This document shows positions 163 through 30,979 of a stretch of 30,979 nt of DNA, piece after piece. The DNA lies in IMG/VR virus record IMGVR_UViG_3300047274_000195, positions 1 to 30,979 of that record. One strand, 5' to 3'. This stretch comes from a virus. The notes under the pieces were generated by a model. The model did not search any database. It worked only from the letters and a program-made list of their open reading frames with translations, and was not told the origin of the DNA. Made by a program: the position numbers and the translations under genes. Each line of letters opens with the position of its first letter. The first letter of the stretch is position 1.

Positions 163-1308
163 ATGTTAGAAGAGGTAAATAAAGTGCAAATGTTTGATTT
201 TTCGAAGGTCATCGTTATGGACCACACGTCCAGACCCACGGATGGTGAAATGATGATAGAGCAGTTGGTCCCCGGCTTGATTGAGGAGAATACGCTCTCC
301 GTTATCGCAGCCCCTTCCTTTGCTGGTAAGAGTTGGGTTGCTATGGCGGTAGCACGTTGCGTAAACGACCCTGACTACAAGTTCATCGGGTTCGGCACAG
401 AGGTTGAGCGTCCTGTCCTCTACGTCGATAAAGAGATGGGAGTTAAGCAGTTCAAGGATCGCTGGAACCGCTTGGGTGGTCAGTGGGAACCGGGCAACAC
501 ATTCCACTATGCTGACCTTACGGGCGAGTACTTCTCCCTTGCAGAGCGTACGCACGTTGAGGCTCTCGCAGACTTTGTAGTCCAGAAGGGTATTGAGTTC
601 GTAGTTATTGACAGCTTGGGTGCTGCTTCTGGTGGTGCTGAAGAGAACAGTAACAGCACGATGCTAGCAGTGATGGATAACGTTAAGGTGCTTCGTGCGG
701 TATGTGCTGTGATGATTATTCACCATACTGGTAAGAGTGCGAAGAAGGATGACCTTGACTCTAATGCACTGCGTGGAGCGTCTGCTATCCGTGACCAGTG
801 CGACAACGTGTTCTTCGTCAACACGCACGAAGGTACGCACCGCACCCTGCGTGAGAACAAGCGTAGGAATAAGGCTGGTGAGATTGAGGACTACGCATTC
901 AATATGCTGTTCGATGGTGGCAATGTCTCCTTCGAACTAGAGGAGAAGATGAAGCCTATCAGTGCAGACTTCCAGCGTGTCGTACAGACGCTTATCATGC
1001 TTGATGAGGCTGTTAGCGGGAACGCACTAAAGAAGGCACTGCGACAGGCTGGACTTACGGTCAAGAACGATGACTTTAACCCTATGCTAGAGCGTATGGA
1101 GCGTGAGGGATTGATCGAGATAGACCGCACAAGCGGTCGTGGATGGAAGATTACCGTAAGCGATGCGGGACGTGAGCGTTATGAGGAAGTAGACCTTATG
1201 ACGGGCTACCGTGACAGCGAGTTGATTGATGAGTTTGAGCAGGAGGAACACGACACGGTTACCGAATGCGACACCTGCGGTTACACCCCTTGTGAGTGTG
1301 ACGAGTAA
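163..1308 (+). CDS. RepA-like AAA ATPase, probable replicative helicase
   Basis: A 381-aa P-loop ATPase of the RecA/RepA (AAA_25) type, likely the phage's replicative helicase or helicase loader acting in the cytoplasm. The Walker A motif APSFAGKS lies at about residues 50-57 and a Walker B-like stretch FVVIDSLGAA near 146-155. VMIIHHTGKS follows about 40 residues later, as in RepA-family ATPases. The C-terminal third (about 260-340) reads as a winged-helix domain. The end TECDTCGYTPCECDE has four cysteines in CxxC/CxC spacing, possibly a small metal site. Two starts compete: ATG 163, or GTG 184, which has the better AGAGGT ribosome site (171-176, 7-nt spacing). It is the first gene after the promoter at 104-132. 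No primase or polymerase accompanies it, so the host must supply the rest of the replisome. Confidence 0.85.
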   Translation: MLEEVNKVQMFDFSKVIVMDHTSRPTDGEMMIEQLVPGLIEENTLSVIAAPSFAGKSWVAMAVARCVNDPDYKFIGFGTEVERPVLYVDKEMGVKQFKDRWNRLGGQWEPGNTFHYADLTGEYFSLAERTHVEALADFVVQKGIEFVVIDSLGAASGGAEENSNSTMLAVMDNVKVLRAVCAVMIIHHTGKSAKKDDLDSNALRGASAIRDQCDNVFFVNTHEGTHRTLRENKRRNKAGEIEDYAFNMLFDGGNVSFELEEKMKPISADFQRVVQTLIMLDEAVSGNALKKALRQAGLTVKNDDFNPMLERMEREGLIEIDRTSGRGWKITVSDAGRERYEEVDLMTGYRDSELIDEFEQEEHDTVTECDTCGYTPCECDE

Positions 1309-11473: not shown

Positions 11474-11920
11474 TTATGCGTAGATGCTAGTGAAGCCCCA
11501 CGCTCCAAGAGCGATAGAAACGGATTCAGTCTGTACCTCTCCGGGTGTCATTGACAAAGTACAGTCAGTGACAAGACCGTTGTATGTTTTGATACCACCG
11601 GCAGTGGAACCGAGAGTTACTTTTACCTTGCACAACCAGCCGACTTTGCCTTGAAAGATTGGACCAAGGGTTTTATCAACCCAGACATCCATATCAAGGG
11701 AACCGGCTTTGCGGGTTTCAAATACCTCATTAGTACCACTACAGATGGTAGACAAGTCAACAGTTGAGGATTGGATGGACACCCTCAAGCTTCTGGCTTG
11801 GCATTCATAGTTAGGGTCAGCAGCTGTTGGGTCAGGTGGCACAGGGGTAGCACCGCTTTGAGCGGTAGTTCCGAATGACACTTCAACCAGTACATCTTTT
11901 ACGAGTAACGGTGTGGGCAT
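11474..11920 (-). CDS. Major tail tube protein
   Basis: A 148-aa protein with AAGGAAG ribosome site. Features typical of siphoviral tail tube subunits are the small beta-rich fold (VDLSTICSGTNEVFETRKAG; LDMDVWVDKTLGPIFQGK) and the C-terminal strand pattern ending in GAWGFTSIYA. The tail terminator gene lies upstream and the chaperone pair with frameshift site downstream, so gene order supports the call. A terminator hairpin follows directly, as expected for the most abundant tail protein. Confidence 0.8.
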   Translation of the reverse strand: MPTPLLVKDVLVEVSFGTTAQSGATPVPPDPTAADPNYECQARSLRVSIQSSTVDLSTICSGTNEVFETRKAGSLDMDVWVDKTLGPIFQGKVGWLCKVKVTLGSTAGGIKTYNGLVTDCTLSMTPGEVQTESVSIALGAWGFTSIYA

Positions 11921-11937: not shown

Positions 11938-12414
11938 TTAGAATGTAACTGTGAACCCATAAATTATAGTCAGACCATAATCTATGTGACCATCAGTTCC
12001 GACAATGATTGGCTGTTCCGTGTCCAACCGTAGGGAAGCGAAATCCAGCCCATCCAATGAGACTTTCTGACCATCCAGTAGAACGGTTATCCTGTCTGCG
12101 ATGGATTGTACCCTTGAGTAGGATATTGAACCTGATTGCTCATACCATACAGTAACACGATAAGAGGGATAAGAGACGTGCGTCCCGCCACATAATGCAT
12201 TACCAAGAGGCTCCCAACTTCCAGTGCGAGAGAACACGATGTACGGCAATACAGGCTCTTTACCGCTTACAGGGTCAACAGTAGGGGCCATCTCTCCATA
12301 CACGCCTAGTTGGAACCCCGGTGCTTTACTGCCAGCAAGAAGTGACTTTAGCGTAGCATCACCAGATAAGGTCTGAAAGATGTACTTTGCTACTGTTAGT
12401 GTTTCAAAACTCAT
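11938..12414 (-). CDS. Tail terminator / tail completion protein
   Basis: A 158-aa protein of the type that caps the growing tail tube and joins it to the head (lambda gpU / DUF3168-like). It begins with a helix (LTVAKYIFQTLSGDATLKSL), has the central strand LPYIVFSRTGSW, a helix SRVQSIADRITVLLDG and final strands DYGLTIIYGFTVTF, the usual order in this family. It overlaps the gp10-like gene by 4 nt and precedes the tail tube gene. Confidence 0.75.
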   Translation of the reverse strand: MSFETLTVAKYIFQTLSGDATLKSLLAGSKAPGFQLGVYGEMAPTVDPVSGKEPVLPYIVFSRTGSWEPLGNALCGGTHVSYPSYRVTVWYEQSGSISYSRVQSIADRITVLLDGQKVSLDGLDFASLRLDTEQPIIVGTDGHIDYGLTIIYGFTVTF

Positions 12415-26357: not shown

Positions 26358-27068
26358 TTATTCAATCTCCTCCTGCACTTCATCCTCCCAGAACTTCGGG
26401 CTTGTGAATGCGGAGCGTAGGTTAAGGCTCTTATTATAGATACCTGCTGCAATGTCCATACCGGGTTCTACAAGGGCACACCAGTCAAGCGGTATCCATA
26501 AGCAGTGGTGTCCGTGTGCCTTATCGCTGTATTTATTCTCTACCCAACGCACCTGTGGCTTTGAGGTTGACCGCATATCATCATAGAAGCGTTTAGGGTC
26601 ACCGTTAGTCTTATCCCAGTTCTTTGCTCTCTGATACAGCCAAGGATGCAGGTGTCCAAGGCTTATAGCGTAAATCTCTGTACCAAGATCAGGCTCACCA
26701 AGTTGTTTGTAGATCTCCGACACTAGCACGATAGGAACAACTTTGCCCGTGCCACGCCAGTTAGGTGCGTACTTATCCCAGATACCTACAATCTTATCCA
26801 TACCAATCTGTACGCAGTGATACGGGTTGCTCTTATCAAAGCGGTCTCGGAACTTCGCTTCTGCAAGCCCGATGAACTTGTCATTCCTATACACTTCAGC
26901 ATCTGCGTGGTCAAACTTACCAAGGCTAGCCTCAAGCTTCCAACCACTCTTTGGAAGTGACTTACGGAACGTATCCAGCATACGCTCCTGTCGCTCAATG
27001 TCTTCTGGGTTAACATAACTCCCGTCTGCTGCCTTATTCCGGAAAGGTATCTCTTGCTCTTTTTGCAT
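26358..27068 (-). CDS. PD-(D/E)XK-type nuclease, putative
   Basis: A 236-aa protein whose N-terminal third holds a PD-(D/E)XK-like core: GKFDHADAEVY (Asp56 or Glu58) and 12 residues later LAEAKFRD (Glu70-x-Lys72), followed by a helix region (YHCVQIGMDKIVGIW). The rest contains PIVLVSEIYKQLG and HCLWIPLDWCALV strands. It may cut DNA as a resolvase, repair or restriction-like enzyme. The methyltransferase gene lies next on the same strand, separated by the leader terminator. It starts 2 nt after the stop of the upstream gene and is the last early leftward gene. Confidence 0.65.
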   Translation of the reverse strand: MQKEQEIPFRNKAADGSYVNPEDIERQERMLDTFRKSLPKSGWKLEASLGKFDHADAEVYRNDKFIGLAEAKFRDRFDKSNPYHCVQIGMDKIVGIWDKYAPNWRGTGKVVPIVLVSEIYKQLGEPDLGTEIYAISLGHLHPWLYQRAKNWDKTNGDPKRFYDDMRSTSKPQVRWVENKYSDKAHGHHCLWIPLDWCALVEPGMDIAAGIYNKSLNLRSAFTSPKFWEDEVQEEIE

Positions 27069-27350: not shown

Positions 27351-27458
27351 TTACTCCCCGTACTTCCAAATTAGCAGCATAGTGGCCACAAACTCAAGTA
27401 CTGCAACAATAACCACTAATGCTCCAATGCTAGCCAATACCGAAATTAAGATACTCAT
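27351..27458 (-). CDS. 35-residue single-pass membrane protein
   Basis: A small ORF: MSILISVLASIGALVVIVAV continues LEFVATMLLIWKYGE. Nearly the whole length is hydrophobic, with a charged end (KYGE). The ATG overlaps the stop of the VRR-NUC gene (ATGA, 27455-27458) and has a GGGAG site; its stop is 4 nt before the next gene. It therefore fills an otherwise unexplained gap in a tightly packed operon. Possible roles are a toxin-like, holin-like or superinfection-exclusion peptide; none is shown. Confidence 0.75.
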   Translation of the reverse strand: MSILISVLASIGALVVIVAVLEFVATMLLIWKYGE

Positions 27459-27838
27459 AAGTTTTCTCCCGTGCGGAGATACTCTTTGATGGCTGCTATA
27501 GCCTCCTCCGCTGTTTTACAAACCACCATCTGTGGAGTTTTAAGACTACTGGCGTAGATATCCTTGCTGAACTGGATCTGCTCCGCTGTGAGCTTGCCTT
27601 TTGGACCCTTCATTTCAATCCAAAGGGAAGACCATACTCCGTTATCAAGTGGCAGGTGCAAGTCCCATACGCCCTTACGCACTCCTAGTAACTGTAACCA
27701 TCGAATTACCCCAAACCCCATCCCAAAGTAAGAGCCAGCAGGATGATAAAGGGTTCGCAGTGCGGGTGTATCAATCTCGTGATGCTTTACCCACGCTATA
27801 ACTTTCTTCTGCTCGTCGCTTTCAGGTGTCTTTGCCAA
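27455..27838 (-). CDS. VRR-NUC domain nuclease
   Basis: A 127-aa protein consisting only of a VRR-NUC domain, a PD-(D/E)XK nuclease fold found in phage Holliday-junction resolvases and repair nucleases. The motif GVRKGVWDL gives the first acid (Asp59), WIEMKGPKGKLTAEQ gives Glu75-x-Lys77 and the trailing Gln. The start codon is TTG 27838, with AAGGAG 8 nt before it inside the end of the sigma factor gene (17-nt overlap). It probably resolves branched DNA formed during replication or before packaging. Confidence 0.85.
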   Translation of the reverse strand: MAKTPESDEQKKVIAWVKHHEIDTPALRTLYHPAGSYFGMGFGVIRWLQLLGVRKGVWDLHLPLDNGVWSSLWIEMKGPKGKLTAEQIQFSKDIYASSLKTPQMVVCKTAEEAIAAIKEYLRTGENL

Positions 27839-28532
27839 TGTATTGCTCCTTTATCTTTATTATACCGTTATTGTACAACTTTGTGAACGTAGCCTCATCG
27901 AACGGTGGTTTCTCATCACTGATTCCAACAAGGTACATCACGCAGTCACGCTCATCGGGAGTGAGGCTGTCTAGTGCCTCTAAAATGCCCGTAGAGAGGC
28001 TTTGATAGTGGTCAGTGGGCAATGTGTCCAACTCGTTATTCAAGGGGCAGGTTGAGACACTAAACGCTTCCATAGCCTTAACGATGCGGTCTAGAGGTAA
28101 GCCTGTTGATTCACAGATTTCAGTTAGGGAAGATGCTCCGGATCCTATAGCCTTGTTCACTTTTGTTTGAGTCTCATGAACGTGTGATGGTAGGCGGATA
28201 GTGCGGTGATTCCCTTCTATCTCTTCTAGGATGTATTTGCGGATCCAGACGTATGCGTAGGTTGATAATTTGGTAGATCCATCATGTCTCTCTATAGCAA
28301 CTAGAAGACCACGAATGCCAGCTTGAACCATATCATCCACGCTGTAACCAATGTGCGTGTACTTGTTGGCTATAGACCGAACAAGGCCAGTGTTTGATGC
28401 GACGAGAATATCTAGGGCTGTATCGTTGTCTCGCATCTTAAGTAAAAAGCACTCTTCCTCCTTTGAGAGTAGAGTGCCTTTCTTCAAGTACAGCCTTCGT
28501 AACCTACTTGCGTCTCTCATTGCAGATATCAC
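27822..28532 (-). CDS. Phage-encoded RpoD-like sigma factor
   Basis: A 236-aa sigma70-family protein. Region 2 is very clear: LVASNTGLVRSIANKY (2.1), YSVDDMVQAGIRGLLVAIER (2.2), KLSTYAYVWIRKYILEEI (2.3-2.4), followed by RTIRLPSHVHE (region 3 start) as in group 1/2 sigmas. A helical region 3 (ICESTGLPLDRIVKAME) follows. The last 45 residues (LDSLTPDERDCVMYLVGISD) resemble region 4.1, but the -35-binding helix-turn-helix is short or divergent. It could redirect host core polymerase to phage promoters by -10 recognition. The start is GTG 28532 or ATG 28520, both inside the repressor gene, so translation is coupled. Confidence 0.88.
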   Translation of the reverse strand: MISAMRDASRLRRLYLKKGTLLSKEEECFLLKMRDNDTALDILVASNTGLVRSIANKYTHIGYSVDDMVQAGIRGLLVAIERHDGSTKLSTYAYVWIRKYILEEIEGNHRTIRLPSHVHETQTKVNKAIGSGASSLTEICESTGLPLDRIVKAMEAFSVSTCPLNNELDTLPTDHYQSLSTGILEALDSLTPDERDCVMYLVGISDEKPPFDEATFTKLYNNGIIKIKEQYIGKDT

Positions 28533-28725
28533 GCAGCTTCATAGACAAGTCATCAACAGGGACATCTAATACGTTTGCCAAGTGTTGTAACCTCCCGTAC
28601 CTAGGAACCCTTACGCCGTTGAGCCATACATTAACACTTGATAGCGGAACACCCATCTCTCGTGCTACGTCTGACTGCGACTTACCCTTTAGTAAACTAT
28701 AAACCTTATCGTTCTTGATGTGCAT
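28504..28725 (-). CDS. Cro/CI-type HTH regulator
   Basis: A 73-aa protein made up almost only of an HTH_3 domain: KSQSDVAREMGVPLSSVNVW is the helix-turn-helix, followed by LNGVRVPRYGRLQHLANVLD and VPVDDL as in Cro/CI proteins. There is no peptidase or oligomerisation domain, so it is Cro-like in size. Its ATG directly follows the TAA of the upstream gene, and its end overlaps the sigma gene by 29 nt. It is the likely reader of one of the operator families described here (TGTTCC/GGAAC or TGACC/GGTCA); the pairing is inference. Confidence 0.85.
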   Translation of the reverse strand: MHIKNDKVYSLLKGKSQSDVAREMGVPLSSVNVWLNGVRVPRYGRLQHLANVLDVPVDDLSMKLRDICNERRK

Positions 28726-28908
28726 TTATTCTCCTCCTCCTGCTGCACGTTTCAGTTCCTCACCACGCTTCTCTACTAGGTTAGATAATTCTTCTATCCT
28801 CTTCTCGATGCGGTTGAGGTGAAACCCGATGATGTTGTGGGTGATGCTTGTTGTAGCCACTACGCCTACAGCCACCCAAATGATGTCTGCCCAATCTTGA
28901 TCTGTCAT
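28726..28908 (-). CDS. Small membrane-anchored coiled-coil protein
   Basis: A 60-aa protein with one membrane segment (about 8-27, DIIWVAVGVVATTSITHNII) and a charged coiled coil (LNRIEKRIEELSNLVEKRGE) ending in AAGGGE. The topology is similar to small phage membrane-tethered proteins, but no family is recognised. It is the first gene after the promoter at 28950-28977, and its stop abuts the repressor start. Confidence 0.65.
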   Translation of the reverse strand: MTDQDWADIIWVAVGVVATTSITHNIIGFHLNRIEKRIEELSNLVEKRGEELKRAAGGGE

Positions 28909-28937
28909 TGCTCTTTATCCTCTCATAATAACCAAGC

Positions 28938-28977
28938 GGTTATAATTTGATTATACCACTCTTATTATCGTATTCAA
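28938..28977 (-). promoter_or_regulatory. Leftward promoter with palindromic -10 region
   Basis: On the minus strand TTGAAT (28972-28977), 16 bases and TATAAT (28950-28955) make a good RpoD-type promoter for the regulator operon. The -10 lies in a near-palindrome GGTTATAAT-TTG-ATTATACC (28938-28957), so TATAAT occurs on both strands; an operator for autoregulation is a natural reading. Confidence 0.6.
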
Positions 28978-29201
28978 AGCACCTTCTCCTCCTTGTGATG
29001 ATCAACTACGAAAATACTTCCCATCCCATCGTTGAGTAAGTCCACCACTGTTTGCTTTGGTCCTTTTTGAGACAACCAGTGTTCTAGTTCCTCTACGTCT
29101 ACCCAATCCCCATCTGGAGTGATTGCACCAACGTACACCCGCAATGCGGGTATCAACGTGTGCGTAGGTCTGTTGTCTTCTATCTCTTGATTATCGTCCA
29201 T
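28974..29201 (-). CDS. Small acidic unknown protein, first leftward early gene
   Basis: A 75-aa acidic protein (MDDNQEIEDNRPTHTLIPAL). I start at ATG 29201 because GGAGG lies 6 nt ahead; the frame stays open to 29309, but that part overlaps the inverted-repeat cluster and has no ribosome site. The middle has strands ALRVYVGAITPDGDWVD and a helix EELEHWLSQKG. Its acidity and first position suggest an early host-takeover protein; this is inference. Confidence 0.7.
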   Translation of the reverse strand: MDDNQEIEDNRPTHTLIPALRVYVGAITPDGDWVDVEELEHWLSQKGPKQTVVDLLNDGMGSIFVVDHHKEEKVL

Positions 29202-29218
29202 AAAAACCTCCATATTCT

Positions 29219-29301
29219 GGCTGTTTACAGCCAAGGTAAGGTACAAGCTTACCAATGACCAATAAAGGGTCAGAATGACCCGTTTTAGGGTCTCTGTGAC
29301 C
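29219..29301. promoter_or_regulatory. Cluster of four adjacent inverted repeats at the head of the leftward operon
   Basis: In order: GGCTG-TTTA-CAGCC (29219-29232), GGTAAG-N7-CTTACC (29235-29253), TGACC-N7-GGTCA (29256-29272), TGACCC-N6-GGGTC (29276-29292), then a further TGACC at 29297-29301. The third shares 14 identical bases with 143-156 before the helicase gene. It may be a multi-site operator or an attenuator-like leader for the gene at 28974-29201. Confidence 0.55.
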
Positions 29302-29491
29302 ATATCCACTTATTCCTTTAAGAGTAATTTGCTTACATTACCTTCCACGCAGACGGAACATTAAAAGAACAACAAAAGACTTATAATTCCCTGCAAGGTC
29401 TTGATCCTCTTAAATAACCTCTGGTTCTCTTATCTAGACCCCTCTTACTTAAACCTTCGGTTCTTTACAGCGGTCTACCTGTAACGGAAGA

Positions 29492-29507
29492 AAGGTCTTT
29501 AGACCTT
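29492..29507. repeat. Perfect stem-loop with TTTA loop
   Basis: AAGGTC-TTTA-GACCTT, 6-bp arms and a 4-base loop. It shares only the TTTA loop with the hairpins at 29219-29232, 29816-29829 and (opposite strand) 29667-29678; the stems differ. Confidence 0.7.
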
Positions 29508-29542
29508 GATGTAGTGGAAGGTATGGCCCTGTTCCGTAGTGA

Positions 29543-29623
29543 AGCGAAGCGTAACGAAGGATGACTGTAATCAGATTACTACTACACTTACCAGAGGTTA
29601 CGATATTCATCCGTCGCTTCGCT
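29543..29623. repeat. Long-range inverted repeat enclosing a smaller hairpin
   Basis: AGCGAAGCG (29543-29551) pairs with CGCTTCGCT (29615-29623). Further inside, GGATGA pairs with TCATCC. The enclosed part holds GTAATC-A-GATTAC (29567-29579). Nesting of this kind points to an RNA fold rather than a simple protein site. Confidence 0.55.
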
Positions 29624-29638
29624 CCTCCTTCTATCGTA

Positions 29639-29678
29639 GGGGTACATACCCCGTCATTACGTCTACGGGCTAAAGCCC
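29639..29678. repeat. Two consecutive stem-loops
   Basis: GGGGT-ACAT-ACCCC (29639-29652) is followed by GGGC-TAAA-GCCC (29667-29678). The second reads TTTA in its loop on the minus strand. Confidence 0.65.
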
Positions 29679-29815
29679 TTGACTTCATTCAGGGGTAGTA
29701 CACCCTGTATTTCTACATCTCATTGCAGATACAGTTTCTTTATAAGAGATCTCTCTTCTTACCTAGTCTGTTGTTTGTTTAGATACCTACTATATGTGTC
29801 GGGTTCCGTAACGGG

Positions 29816-29829
29816 GATGCTTTAGCATC
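29816..29829. repeat. Perfect stem-loop with TTTA loop
   Basis: GATGC-TTTA-GCATC, 5-bp arms; see the hairpin at 29492-29507 for the shared loop. Confidence 0.65.
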
Positions 29830-29850
29830 ACCAGTGGAGGAAGCCACACG

Positions 29851-29930
29851 CCAGTTGAGACTGGCAAGTCTCATTATCTTTATCTACCGTAGGTAGGGAA
29901 GATAAGAACCAATATGCGTTGCGTAGCAAC
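29851..29930. repeat. Series of stem-loops including two mutually exclusive ones
   Basis: CCAGT-TGAG-ACTGG (29851-29864) overlaps TGAGACT-GGCA-AGTCTCA (29856-29873), so only one can form. Next comes a 12-bp stem with an internal loop (TTATCTT 29874-29880 with AAGATAA 29899-29905; CTACC 29884-29888 with GGTAG 29892-29896, loop GTA), then GTTGC-GTA-GCAAC (29918-29930). Confidence 0.65.
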
Positions 29931-29940
29931 ATCAGTTTTA

Positions 29941-29982
29941 TGTTCCTACACATAGGTCTGTTCCTACACATAGGTCTGTTCC
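29941..29982. repeat. Two tandem 18-bp repeats plus a third TGTTCC
   Basis: The same 18 bases (TGTTCCTACACATAGGTC) occur at 29941-29958 and 29959-29976, and TGTTCC restarts at 29977. CCTA-CACA-TAGG within each unit is itself an inverted repeat. The third TGTTCC (29977-29982) lies 19 bases before GGAAC at 30002, making the same composite site as at 90-119. Iterons for replication or clustered operators are both possible. Confidence 0.75.
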
Positions 29983-29995
29983 TTATTTCATTTAC

Positions 29996-30064
29996 TATAT
30001 AGGAACGGGGAACAGTCACTACTTATCCCAGATTCATCTGTTATATAGGAACGGGGAACAGTCA
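29996..30064. repeat. Two exact copies of a 23-bp repeat ahead of the rightward promoter
   Basis: The copies at 29996-30018 and 30042-30064 are identical, start-to-start distance 46 bp. Each consists of TATATA followed by GGAACGGGGAACAG, i.e. two GGAAC half-sites 7 bp apart. The second copy ends 8 bases before the -35 at 30072. Read leftward, TATAGT (29994-29999) could be a -10 for transcription into the hairpin region. Confidence 0.75.
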
Positions 30065-30071
30065 GGATTTT

Positions 30072-30101
30072 TTGAAGGTGATGTGTCCTTGTAGCGATAA
30101 T
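30072..30101 (+). promoter_or_regulatory. Rightward early promoter
   Basis: TTGAAG (30072-30077), 18 bases, GATAAT (30096-30101), start near 30108, 37 nt ahead of ATG 30145. The GGAAC repeat pair just upstream suggests control by the same regulator as the other boundary sites. Confidence 0.6.
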
Positions 30102-30144
30102 AATCCGATAATACACTGTGCAATCAGCACATAGGAGAAATTAC

Positions 30145-30450
30145 ATGAACGCTTACACGGTAACAATCAACTGGGTTATGACCACGGGCAACGCCCGCAT
30201 CTTGTCCGATGAGGGACGCAGGACTATCGTACGCACCGCACCATCTGCTAGGGTATTAGCAAAGGAAATCATCGCAGACCTTAAATCACAGCCATACAAC
30301 GCTGGAGCAAGGTGTGTAGATTCTTGTGCGGTCATCTATCGTTCCGGAACAGTCATCGATCTCGTTAACACACTCTATGTAGAAGAGGCTCGTGACAACG
30401 TAGCCTTCCACGAGATGAACATCAGGATTAACAATAACGGAGCTTGCTAA
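30145..30450 (+). CDS. Unknown protein, first rightward gene
   Basis: A 101-aa protein beginning MNAYTVTINWVMTTGNARIL, with AGGAG 7 nt before ATG 30145 (the frame is open from 30118, but that stretch lies across the promoter start and has no ribosome site). It has an alternating beta-alpha-beta look: strand YTVTINWVM, helix SARVLAKEIIADLKS, strands DSCAVIYRSGTVIDLVN. No family recognised. As the first product of the rightward operon it may act early, with the helicase. Confidence 0.7.
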   Translation: MNAYTVTINWVMTTGNARILSDEGRRTIVRTAPSARVLAKEIIADLKSQPYNAGARCVDSCAVIYRSGTVIDLVNTLYVEEARDNVAFHEMNIRINNNGAC

Positions 30451-30481
30451 CAGGCAAACATAAGTTCACTGTATAAAGGTA

Positions 30482-30510
30482 TTGACAAAGCGGTAATGAA
30501 ACGGTAATCT
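30482..30510 (+). promoter_or_regulatory. Strong sigma70 promoter before the 119-aa gene
   Basis: TTGACA (30482-30487), exactly 17 bases, TAATCT (30505-30510), start near 30517. TGTTCC (30516-30521) lies on the expected start, as if a repressor half-site had been placed there. Confidence 0.75.
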
Positions 30511-30550
30511 TCTACTGTTCCCGCCGTTATGGGATCAAGAGGTAAAGATT

Positions 30551-30910
30551 ATGTGTTTAGACGAGTTTGTTGGGTTTAACATCGGTCCTGTAGCATCGCA
30601 GGATCTTCCAAAGGGTTATTGGGTAGCGTCAATGTTCTCTGACCAGTTCTGCGCTATCTTTGCGTTGCCTGTCTATAAGGACGGTAGCGTAGTAGACTTC
30701 CGTCCTCTCGTTAGCGACAAGAGTGCTGGGTTGATTACTGTACTGCAGAACCACGCATTCTCAAAGCTCATTGGGGTTAAGATGCACACAAGTAAGAAGT
30801 ACTCCGCAGACCTTAACGGAGTACAGGCAACCATCATTGTGGAAACGGTAGCGGATCACCTCAAGCGTGTCGATGAACACAAGCAGGTAAACGGTAACAC
30901 GGCAGAGTAA
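30551..30910 (+). CDS. Unknown protein spanning the circular join
   Basis: A 119-aa protein with AGAGGT 7 nt before ATG. Beta-rich start (MCLDEFVGFNIGPVASQDLP), a central FCAIFALPVYKDGSVVDFRP, and a charged helical end (ETVADHLKRVDEHKQ). The last 69 nt are repeated at 1-69 because of the terminal redundancy. On the circle the helicase promoter and gene follow within 93 nt. No family recognised. Confidence 0.7.
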   Translation: MCLDEFVGFNIGPVASQDLPKGYWVASMFSDQFCAIFALPVYKDGSVVDFRPLVSDKSAGLITVLQNHAFSKLIGVKMHTSKKYSADLNGVQATIIVETVADHLKRVDEHKQVNGNTAE

Positions 30911-30979
30911 ATAATGAATATTGTTCCAACTGTTCCGTACATACTTGCGGATTGGGGAACGATAAGGGATAAATAAGAT
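30842..30979. repeat. Right copy of 138-bp terminal repeat
   Basis: Same as 1-138 except G at 30968 where the left copy has T at 127. That base is the first of the -10 box of the helicase promoter (TATAAA on the left, GATAAA here). Confidence 0.95.

Follow-up and report, generated by a model that had tools for sequence, protein, structure and literature searches.

Two divergent gene blocks meet at a noncoding region of about 0.9 kb (29202-30144) that is packed with short hairpins (Table 1). The window, that is, the whole stretch of DNA analysed, is the 30,979-base record IMGVR_UViG_3300047274_000195, whose two ends (1-138 and 30842-30979) overlap by 138 bp with one mismatch, so that the record closes into a full circular map of about 30,841 bp. 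It is a tailed dsDNA phage and carries a terminase and a portal. The leftward block starts from 29201 and carries a 75-aa gene, an HTH gene, a sigma factor, two nuclease-like genes, a methyltransferase, the terminase, portal, capsid and tail genes and an endolysin. The rightward block carries two genes without a named function, a RecA-type helicase and small genes. Family searches gave no match for either of the bordering proteins, the 75-aa leftward one (28974-29201) or the 101-aa rightward one (30145-30450). Of the nuclease-like genes, 27455-27838 (minus strand) encodes a VRR-NUC-like structure-specific nuclease, and 26358-27068 (minus strand) a second protein that resembles a PD-(D/E)XK nuclease as judged by eye. 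Conserved promoter-like elements were seen at 28950-28977 (minus strand; GGTATAAT) ahead of gene 28726-28908, and at 30486-30514 (plus strand; TTGACA-17-TAATCT) ahead of gene 30551.

The sole relative that we found is IMGVR_UViG_3300020044_009685 (L028 in coordinates below), with amino-acid identities of 91% for the helicase and 83% for the sigma factor. Searches with the sigma factor, the helicase, the first rightward protein and core DNA patterns returned only that one contig; no direct DNA relative was found among known phages and plasmids, and the methyltransferase had no relative in the genome collection. The relative keeps both the ribosome-binding site and the ATG of the 75-aa leftward gene.

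Table 1 Elements of the hairpin region and genes referred to in the text, in window coordinates; "relative" is IMGVR_UViG_3300020044_009685.
Feature	Positions	Strand	Remarks
RecA-type (AAA_25) RepA/DnaB-like helicase	163-1308	+	probable C-terminal winged helix
Leftward operon, mostly late	2267-28532	-	
First leftward gene, 75 aa	28974-29201	-	left border of hairpin region; RBS ggagg at 29204-29208
Hairpin TGGCTG-TTTA-CAGCCA	29218-29233		relative GGACTG-TAAA-CAGTCC, two compensatory pair changes
Hairpin GGTAAG-(7)-CTTACC	29235-29253		relative AGTAA..TTACT, one compensatory pair (G-C to A-T), innermost pair lost
Hairpin GGGTCA-GAA-TGACCC	29267-29281		G-N-A triloop on + strand; identical in relative
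Hairpin GGTC-(5)-GACC	29287-29299		left arm shifted by one base in relative, pairing kept; alignment read directly
Inverted repeat TTCC...GGAA	29343-29358		conserved; operator or hairpin
Segment	29403-29637		absent from relative, where about 45 nt take its place and include an extra GGGCTAAAGCCC hairpin
Hairpin AAGGTC-TTTA-GACCTT	29492-29507		inside segment 29403-29637, absent from relative
Conserved block	29638-29708		palindromes GGGGTACATACCCC (29639-29652) and GGGGTAGTACACCC (29692-29705) flanking GGGC-TAAA-GCCC (29667-29678)
Core, about 135 bp	29794-29927		97% identical in relative
Imperfect 54-nt hairpin of core	29796-29849		tip GATGC-TTTA-GCATC at 29816-29829
Mutually exclusive hairpins GCCAGTTGAGACTGGC / TGAGACTGGCAAGTCTCA, or H-type pseudoknot	29850-29873		identical in relative
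Hairpin TTATCTT..CTACC-GTA-GGTAG..AAGATAA	29874-29905		G-N-A triloop
Hairpin GTTGC-GTA-GCAAC	29918-29930		relative GTTGT-GAA-ACAAC, compensatory pair (C-G to T-A), loop still G-N-A
Iteron-like tandem repeat TGTTCCTACACATAGGTC, 2.4 copies	29941-29983	+	18-bp unit; 19-bp unit in relative
Two 32-bp copies (91%), TTCAT..TATATAGGAACGGGGAACAGTCA	29987-30018, 30033-30064	+	single copy in relative; may be an extended -10 promoter or a binding site
First rightward gene, 101 aa	30145-30450	+	right border of hairpin region; RBS aggag read directly

We counted perfect, non-overlapping hairpins with a stem of at least 5 bp and a loop of 3-8 nt. Positions 29202-30117 hold 15 of them, against 5.1±1.8 (maximum 10) in 200 dinucleotide shuffles, so the dense small inverted repeats reported in the initial annotation are real. 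The median 916-bp stretch of the record holds 2, and this one is the densest. Terminator-like hairpins across 28900-30979 number 8 versus 1.5±1.3; a promoter consensus scan stayed at chance level. Spacers of 2, 3 and 4 nt account for most of the excess of dyads; at exactly 2 nt, the region has 7 dyads versus 0.2 expected from the coding part. The pair of hairpins described as mutually exclusive was also confirmed, as GCCAGTTGAGACTGGC (29850-29865) competes with TGAGACTGGCAAGTCTCA (29856-29873) and both are unchanged in the relative. Palindromes GGGGTACATACCCC and GGGGTAGTACACCC are likewise able to pair with each other. A nested repeat claimed at 29543-29623 is not conserved and is the weakest part of the density claim: it lies within segment 29403-29637, which is missing from the relative and which shows no excess of local folding over shuffles (z about 0 to +1). 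That the region contains no credible gene agrees with the relative, in which ORFs 29449-29688 and 29828-30019 are not open; its better borders are 29202 (leftward gene start) and 30144 (rightward gene start).

Apart from segment 29403-29637, the relative keeps the region. Within the core, 126/130 positions are identical, versus a median of 109/130 (84%) in aligned windows outside the region; only two coding stretches among these windows match the level of the core. Outside the core, hairpins have kept their pairing while their letters changed. In the three letter-changed hairpins (29218-29233, 29235-29253 and 29918-29930) 4 pairs are compensated and 1 is broken, and the compensatory changes all lead from one Watson-Crick pair to another. 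Compensated and broken pairs stand at 5:12 over the whole region, versus 1:59 for chance hairpins in aligned genes. On either strand, the alignment folds better than its column-shuffled versions (z -3.9 to -7.2). The covariation material consists of 4-5 compensatory pairs from two genomes only and does not distinguish the strand. Of the earlier proposal of a structured RNA or origin, a conserved and structurally constrained noncoding region finds support in the compensatory changes and the folding z; the half that envisaged a GOLLD- or ROOL-like RNA does not find support.

GOLLD is often located near tRNA genes, and no tRNA or tmRNA was found in the complete genome. What the region has in common with GOLLD and ROOL (PMC12286853) is that it is a structured noncoding part of a phage genome, and long, close to GOLLD in size. 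In contrast to these RNAs, it is an array of small, separate hairpins with poorly conserved linkers instead of one large fold. The GOLLD and ROOL models gave no match on the region at E<=10, and Rfam models over the whole window gave 0 matches at the gathering score, so we rejected GOLLD, ROOL and any other Rfam family. Nor is there a strand signal in the region, as G-U counts are similar and folding z values alike on the two strands, and its hairpins contain no GNRA or UNCG loops.

Two classes of loop stand out in the region and are fixed while the stems vary freely between hairpins. TTTA/TAAA loops make up 4/897 of the tetraloop hairpins in control contigs; with stems of at least 4 bp, all four in the window lie in this region, and all four in the relative likewise. 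The window has three G-N-A triloop hairpins with stems of at least 5 bp, and every one of them is in the region, on the plus strand (P ~8e-4, post hoc; the loop classes were spotted after looking, so that their probabilities are only guides). The relative keeps all three, one with GAA for GTA, and has three more outside the region. As an observation apart, its right operon carries TGGTCGC-GAA-GCGACCA and TGGTCGC-GTA-GCGACCA at L028:10379-10395 and 12081-12097, one of them just past the helicase gene and neither present in the window. In DNA, GAA has been called the most stable loop by virtue of a sheared G-A pair (PMC9828363), TTTA is a compact tetraloop closed by a T-A pair between its first and last bases (PMC8037738), and in phage N4 physiological levels of supercoiling suffice to extrude short hairpins whose triloop has a sheared G:A pair (PMC4496689). 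Taken together, the loops of the region suggest the compact DNA-hairpin type and are not typical of RNA.

These observations bear directly on the main rival to a DNA-based reading, a structured leader RNA. The region, or its core together with the hairpins near 29201, would then be transcribed as a leader or free noncoding RNA with a fold of several hairpins, controlling the adjacent genes by attenuation, antitermination or binding. RNA folding is strong (z -6.0 on the plus and -4.9 on the minus strand), the alignment folding on both strands counts in its favour, the near-invariant core holds a pseudoknot-capable element, and such an RNA would leave compensatory changes identical to those observed. 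Yet besides the missing Rfam match, strand signal and GNRA/UNCG loops, the palindromes with a 2-nt centre and the G-N-A and TTTA loops are of DNA type, one TTTA loop has become TAAA in the relative, and a candidate rightward promoter (~29996, ~30042) lies downstream of the array. We consider an RNA of this kind conceivable but rather unlikely.

The chances are lower still that the region is a dense divergent promoter region whose palindromes are duplex sites for the HTH protein and other regulators, which we regard as distinctly unlikely. A Cro/CI-like HTH gene does lie nearby at 28504-28725, TGTTCC/GGAAC half-sites and tandem repeats (29941-30064) are present, and the promoter-like elements at 28950-28977 and 30486-30514 are conserved. 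However, the sites of one protein share their arm sequence, whereas here the arms differ and only complementarity and loop are kept; about ten conserved hairpins are also far above the need of the regulators recognised. Least probable, and in our judgement very unlikely, are REP-like or small mobile palindromes gathering in the only sizeable noncoding region and purged from genes: gain and loss between the relatives would fit (the relative has a second CTACGGGCTAAAGCCCTTG unit, lacks 29403-29637 and has two TGGTCGCGNAGCGACCA copies elsewhere), but the hairpins are for the most part distinct sequences instead of copies of one another, neutral repeats would not be expected to leave a core with 97% identity, and the GGGCTAAAGCCCTTG pattern occurs elsewhere only at chance level. 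The hairpin pattern TACGGGCTAAAGCCCTTG was rejected as a host or mobile repeat, its matches being at chance level too.

Unexpectedly, we also found that short-loop Watson-Crick hairpins are strongly avoided in most late genes. The leftward genes contain 37 stems of 5 bp with loops of 3-7 nt, versus 136 expected from 12-40-nt spacers; the avoidance is strongest at loops of 3-4 nt and gone at 10 nt or more. Compared with synonymous codon shuffles, the portal gene has 3 hairpins versus 34, the protease 2 versus 17.9, TerL 5 versus 22 and the sigma factor 4 versus 13, with a peak in protease and portal at about 0.1 of expectation. The capsid gene shows mild avoidance, hairpins are normal in the helicase gene (21 versus 22.6) and in gene 26361-27068 (12 versus 11.4), and the right operon shows no avoidance. 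Opposite to its neighbours, a 148-aa tail-region gene (11477-11920, minus strand) has an excess (19 versus 10.2). The relative shows the same pattern, with the avoidance at L028:1-7736.

This ban is strand-symmetric, acts at synonymous sites and tracks DNA pairing, not mRNA pairing. In the strongly affected genes pooled, 5-bp stems number 6 versus 60.8 expected (z -6.6). One G.U pair in the mRNA makes a stem no scarcer (ratio 0.62) than A.C-mismatch stems would lead one to expect (0.74), and stems with two G.U pairs are normal. The mRNA strand shows no avoidance of GNRA hairpins with 3-bp stems (13 versus 11.7), and late genes contain no G-N-A/T-N-C triloop on a 4-bp stem at all (0 versus 13.2). 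The symmetry between strands, the indifference to G.U pairs, the tolerance of GNRA hairpins and the absence of the triloops fit DNA better than mRNA; mRNA folding was rejected as the cause because the sense strand is no more avoided than the antisense strand. Mutation bias or composition was rejected as well, since the long-spacer controls, codon shuffles, right operon and portal relatives do not show the effect. Across 172 control bins from 28 contigs, lambda included, the median ratio is about 1 and the minimum 0.37, versus values down to 0.15 in the window, and 34 portal-bearing contigs (portals of ~30-70% identity) show no avoidance, with portal ratios of 0.74-1.51, so that the ban is specific to this lineage. 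Even without a mechanism, an approximately ten-fold, strand-symmetric avoidance of 5-bp stems at synonymous sites, absent from 34 portal relatives, demands explanation. The lowest control bin (0.37; L030:10001-12500) belongs to a phage contig; one of the proteins encoded on this contig is distantly related to the helicase.

The initial annotation had noted only a helicase for replication and had raised the possibility of an origin. Among the proteins searched, no other replication protein was recognised, in agreement with the former remark; this covers primases, Rep initiators and hairpin-reading polymerases. No virion or T7-like RNA polymerase gene was found among the proteins searched, a set without the two longest ones (970 and 924 aa). 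The helicase model places H-H-H-E-E at residues 268-332 with low confidence (mean pLDDT 44.5), which points to a probable C-terminal winged helix. The helicase and the iteron-like 18-bp repeat speak for the origin reading. Against it, the DnaA box TTWTNCACA is absent from 29202-30144, although some iteron origins do without, and the 2.4 copies of the repeat are fewer than usual for iteron origins. The GC-skew minimum in the region was discarded as evidence, as it is confounded by gene orientation. An origin at the region is thus possible.

Weighing this evidence, we tentatively favour, at slightly less than even odds, the reading that folded DNA makes this a control region, and that it most likely holds the start of replication that the RepA-like helicase uses. 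An array of folded-DNA signals would lie where the two divergent transcription units meet, and its short perfect palindromes with TTTA/TAAA or G-N-A loops would extrude in vivo under negative supercoiling or when single-stranded. DNA between divergent promoters is negatively supercoiled, a state that would promote extrusion; for the promoter hairpins of N4, extrusion under supercoiling has been shown (PMC4496689). The extruded hairpins could then be read by a phage or host factor. From the iteron-like repeat, the three-hairpin core and the RepA-like helicase, we infer that the likeliest use is the start of phage DNA replication, where the 135-bp three-hairpin core and the adjoining iteron-like repeat would form the loading place for the RepA-like helicase, together with host polymerase and primase.

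We further propose that the signal function of hairpins led to their removal from the late genes. More broadly, short DNA hairpins could serve this lineage as a genome-wide signal: packed in the control region, they would be kept out of most late genes by selection that acts on folded DNA, and a hairpin-reading factor (a loader, primase, nuclease or defence system) would act at the intended places only. This wider idea is doubtful, and the uneven ban and the hairpin array may have separate causes. If true, the control region of a small tailed phage would rely on folded DNA, which would replace or complement specificity coded in sequence, with late genes reshaped so that the hairpin signal stays unique. 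Sequence avoidance across a genome would here take a new form, one that targets a structure and not a word. Such a purge is measurable in any genome and could expose hairpin-reading machinery or defences elsewhere.

The filamentous phage intergenic region offers one precedent, with hairpins A-E forming the packaging signal and the origins. It shares with our region a hairpin-packed noncoding stretch, the replication role here being putative; in contrast, ours is a tailed dsDNA phage with terminase and portal, and no rolling-circle Rep was found. The plasmid RSF1010 has iterons and a RepA helicase. Hairpins are present in its oriV as ssiA and ssiB (PMC4434180), and the phage resembles it in having a RepA-type helicase gene, iteron-like direct repeats and hairpins in a noncoding control region. 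Four bases past the core hairpin at 29816-29829 stands a GTG, a weak lead towards an ssi-like layout. Unlike in RSF1010, neither a RepB' primase nor a RepC initiator was recognised among the phage proteins searched, the repeats amount to only 2.4 copies, the hairpins are far more numerous and the origin is putative. At the early promoters of phage N4, in turn, supercoiling extrudes DNA hairpins that the virion RNA polymerase reads (PMC4496689). Likewise, our region has short phage palindromes whose stems measure 5-7 bp and whose 3-nt loops contain a G..A pair, some letters of the stem being free where only pairing counts; its three conserved G-N-A triloops, with none elsewhere in the window, are phage hairpins of this G..A type. 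In contrast, N4 has few promoters and a giant virion RNA polymerase, whereas no such polymerase was found among the proteins searched here, and many of the loops here are TTTA/TAAA. Finally, one motif, ATGACCAATAAAGG(G)TCA, occurs both at 143-159, just upstream of the helicase gene, and at 29255-29272 in the hairpin region.
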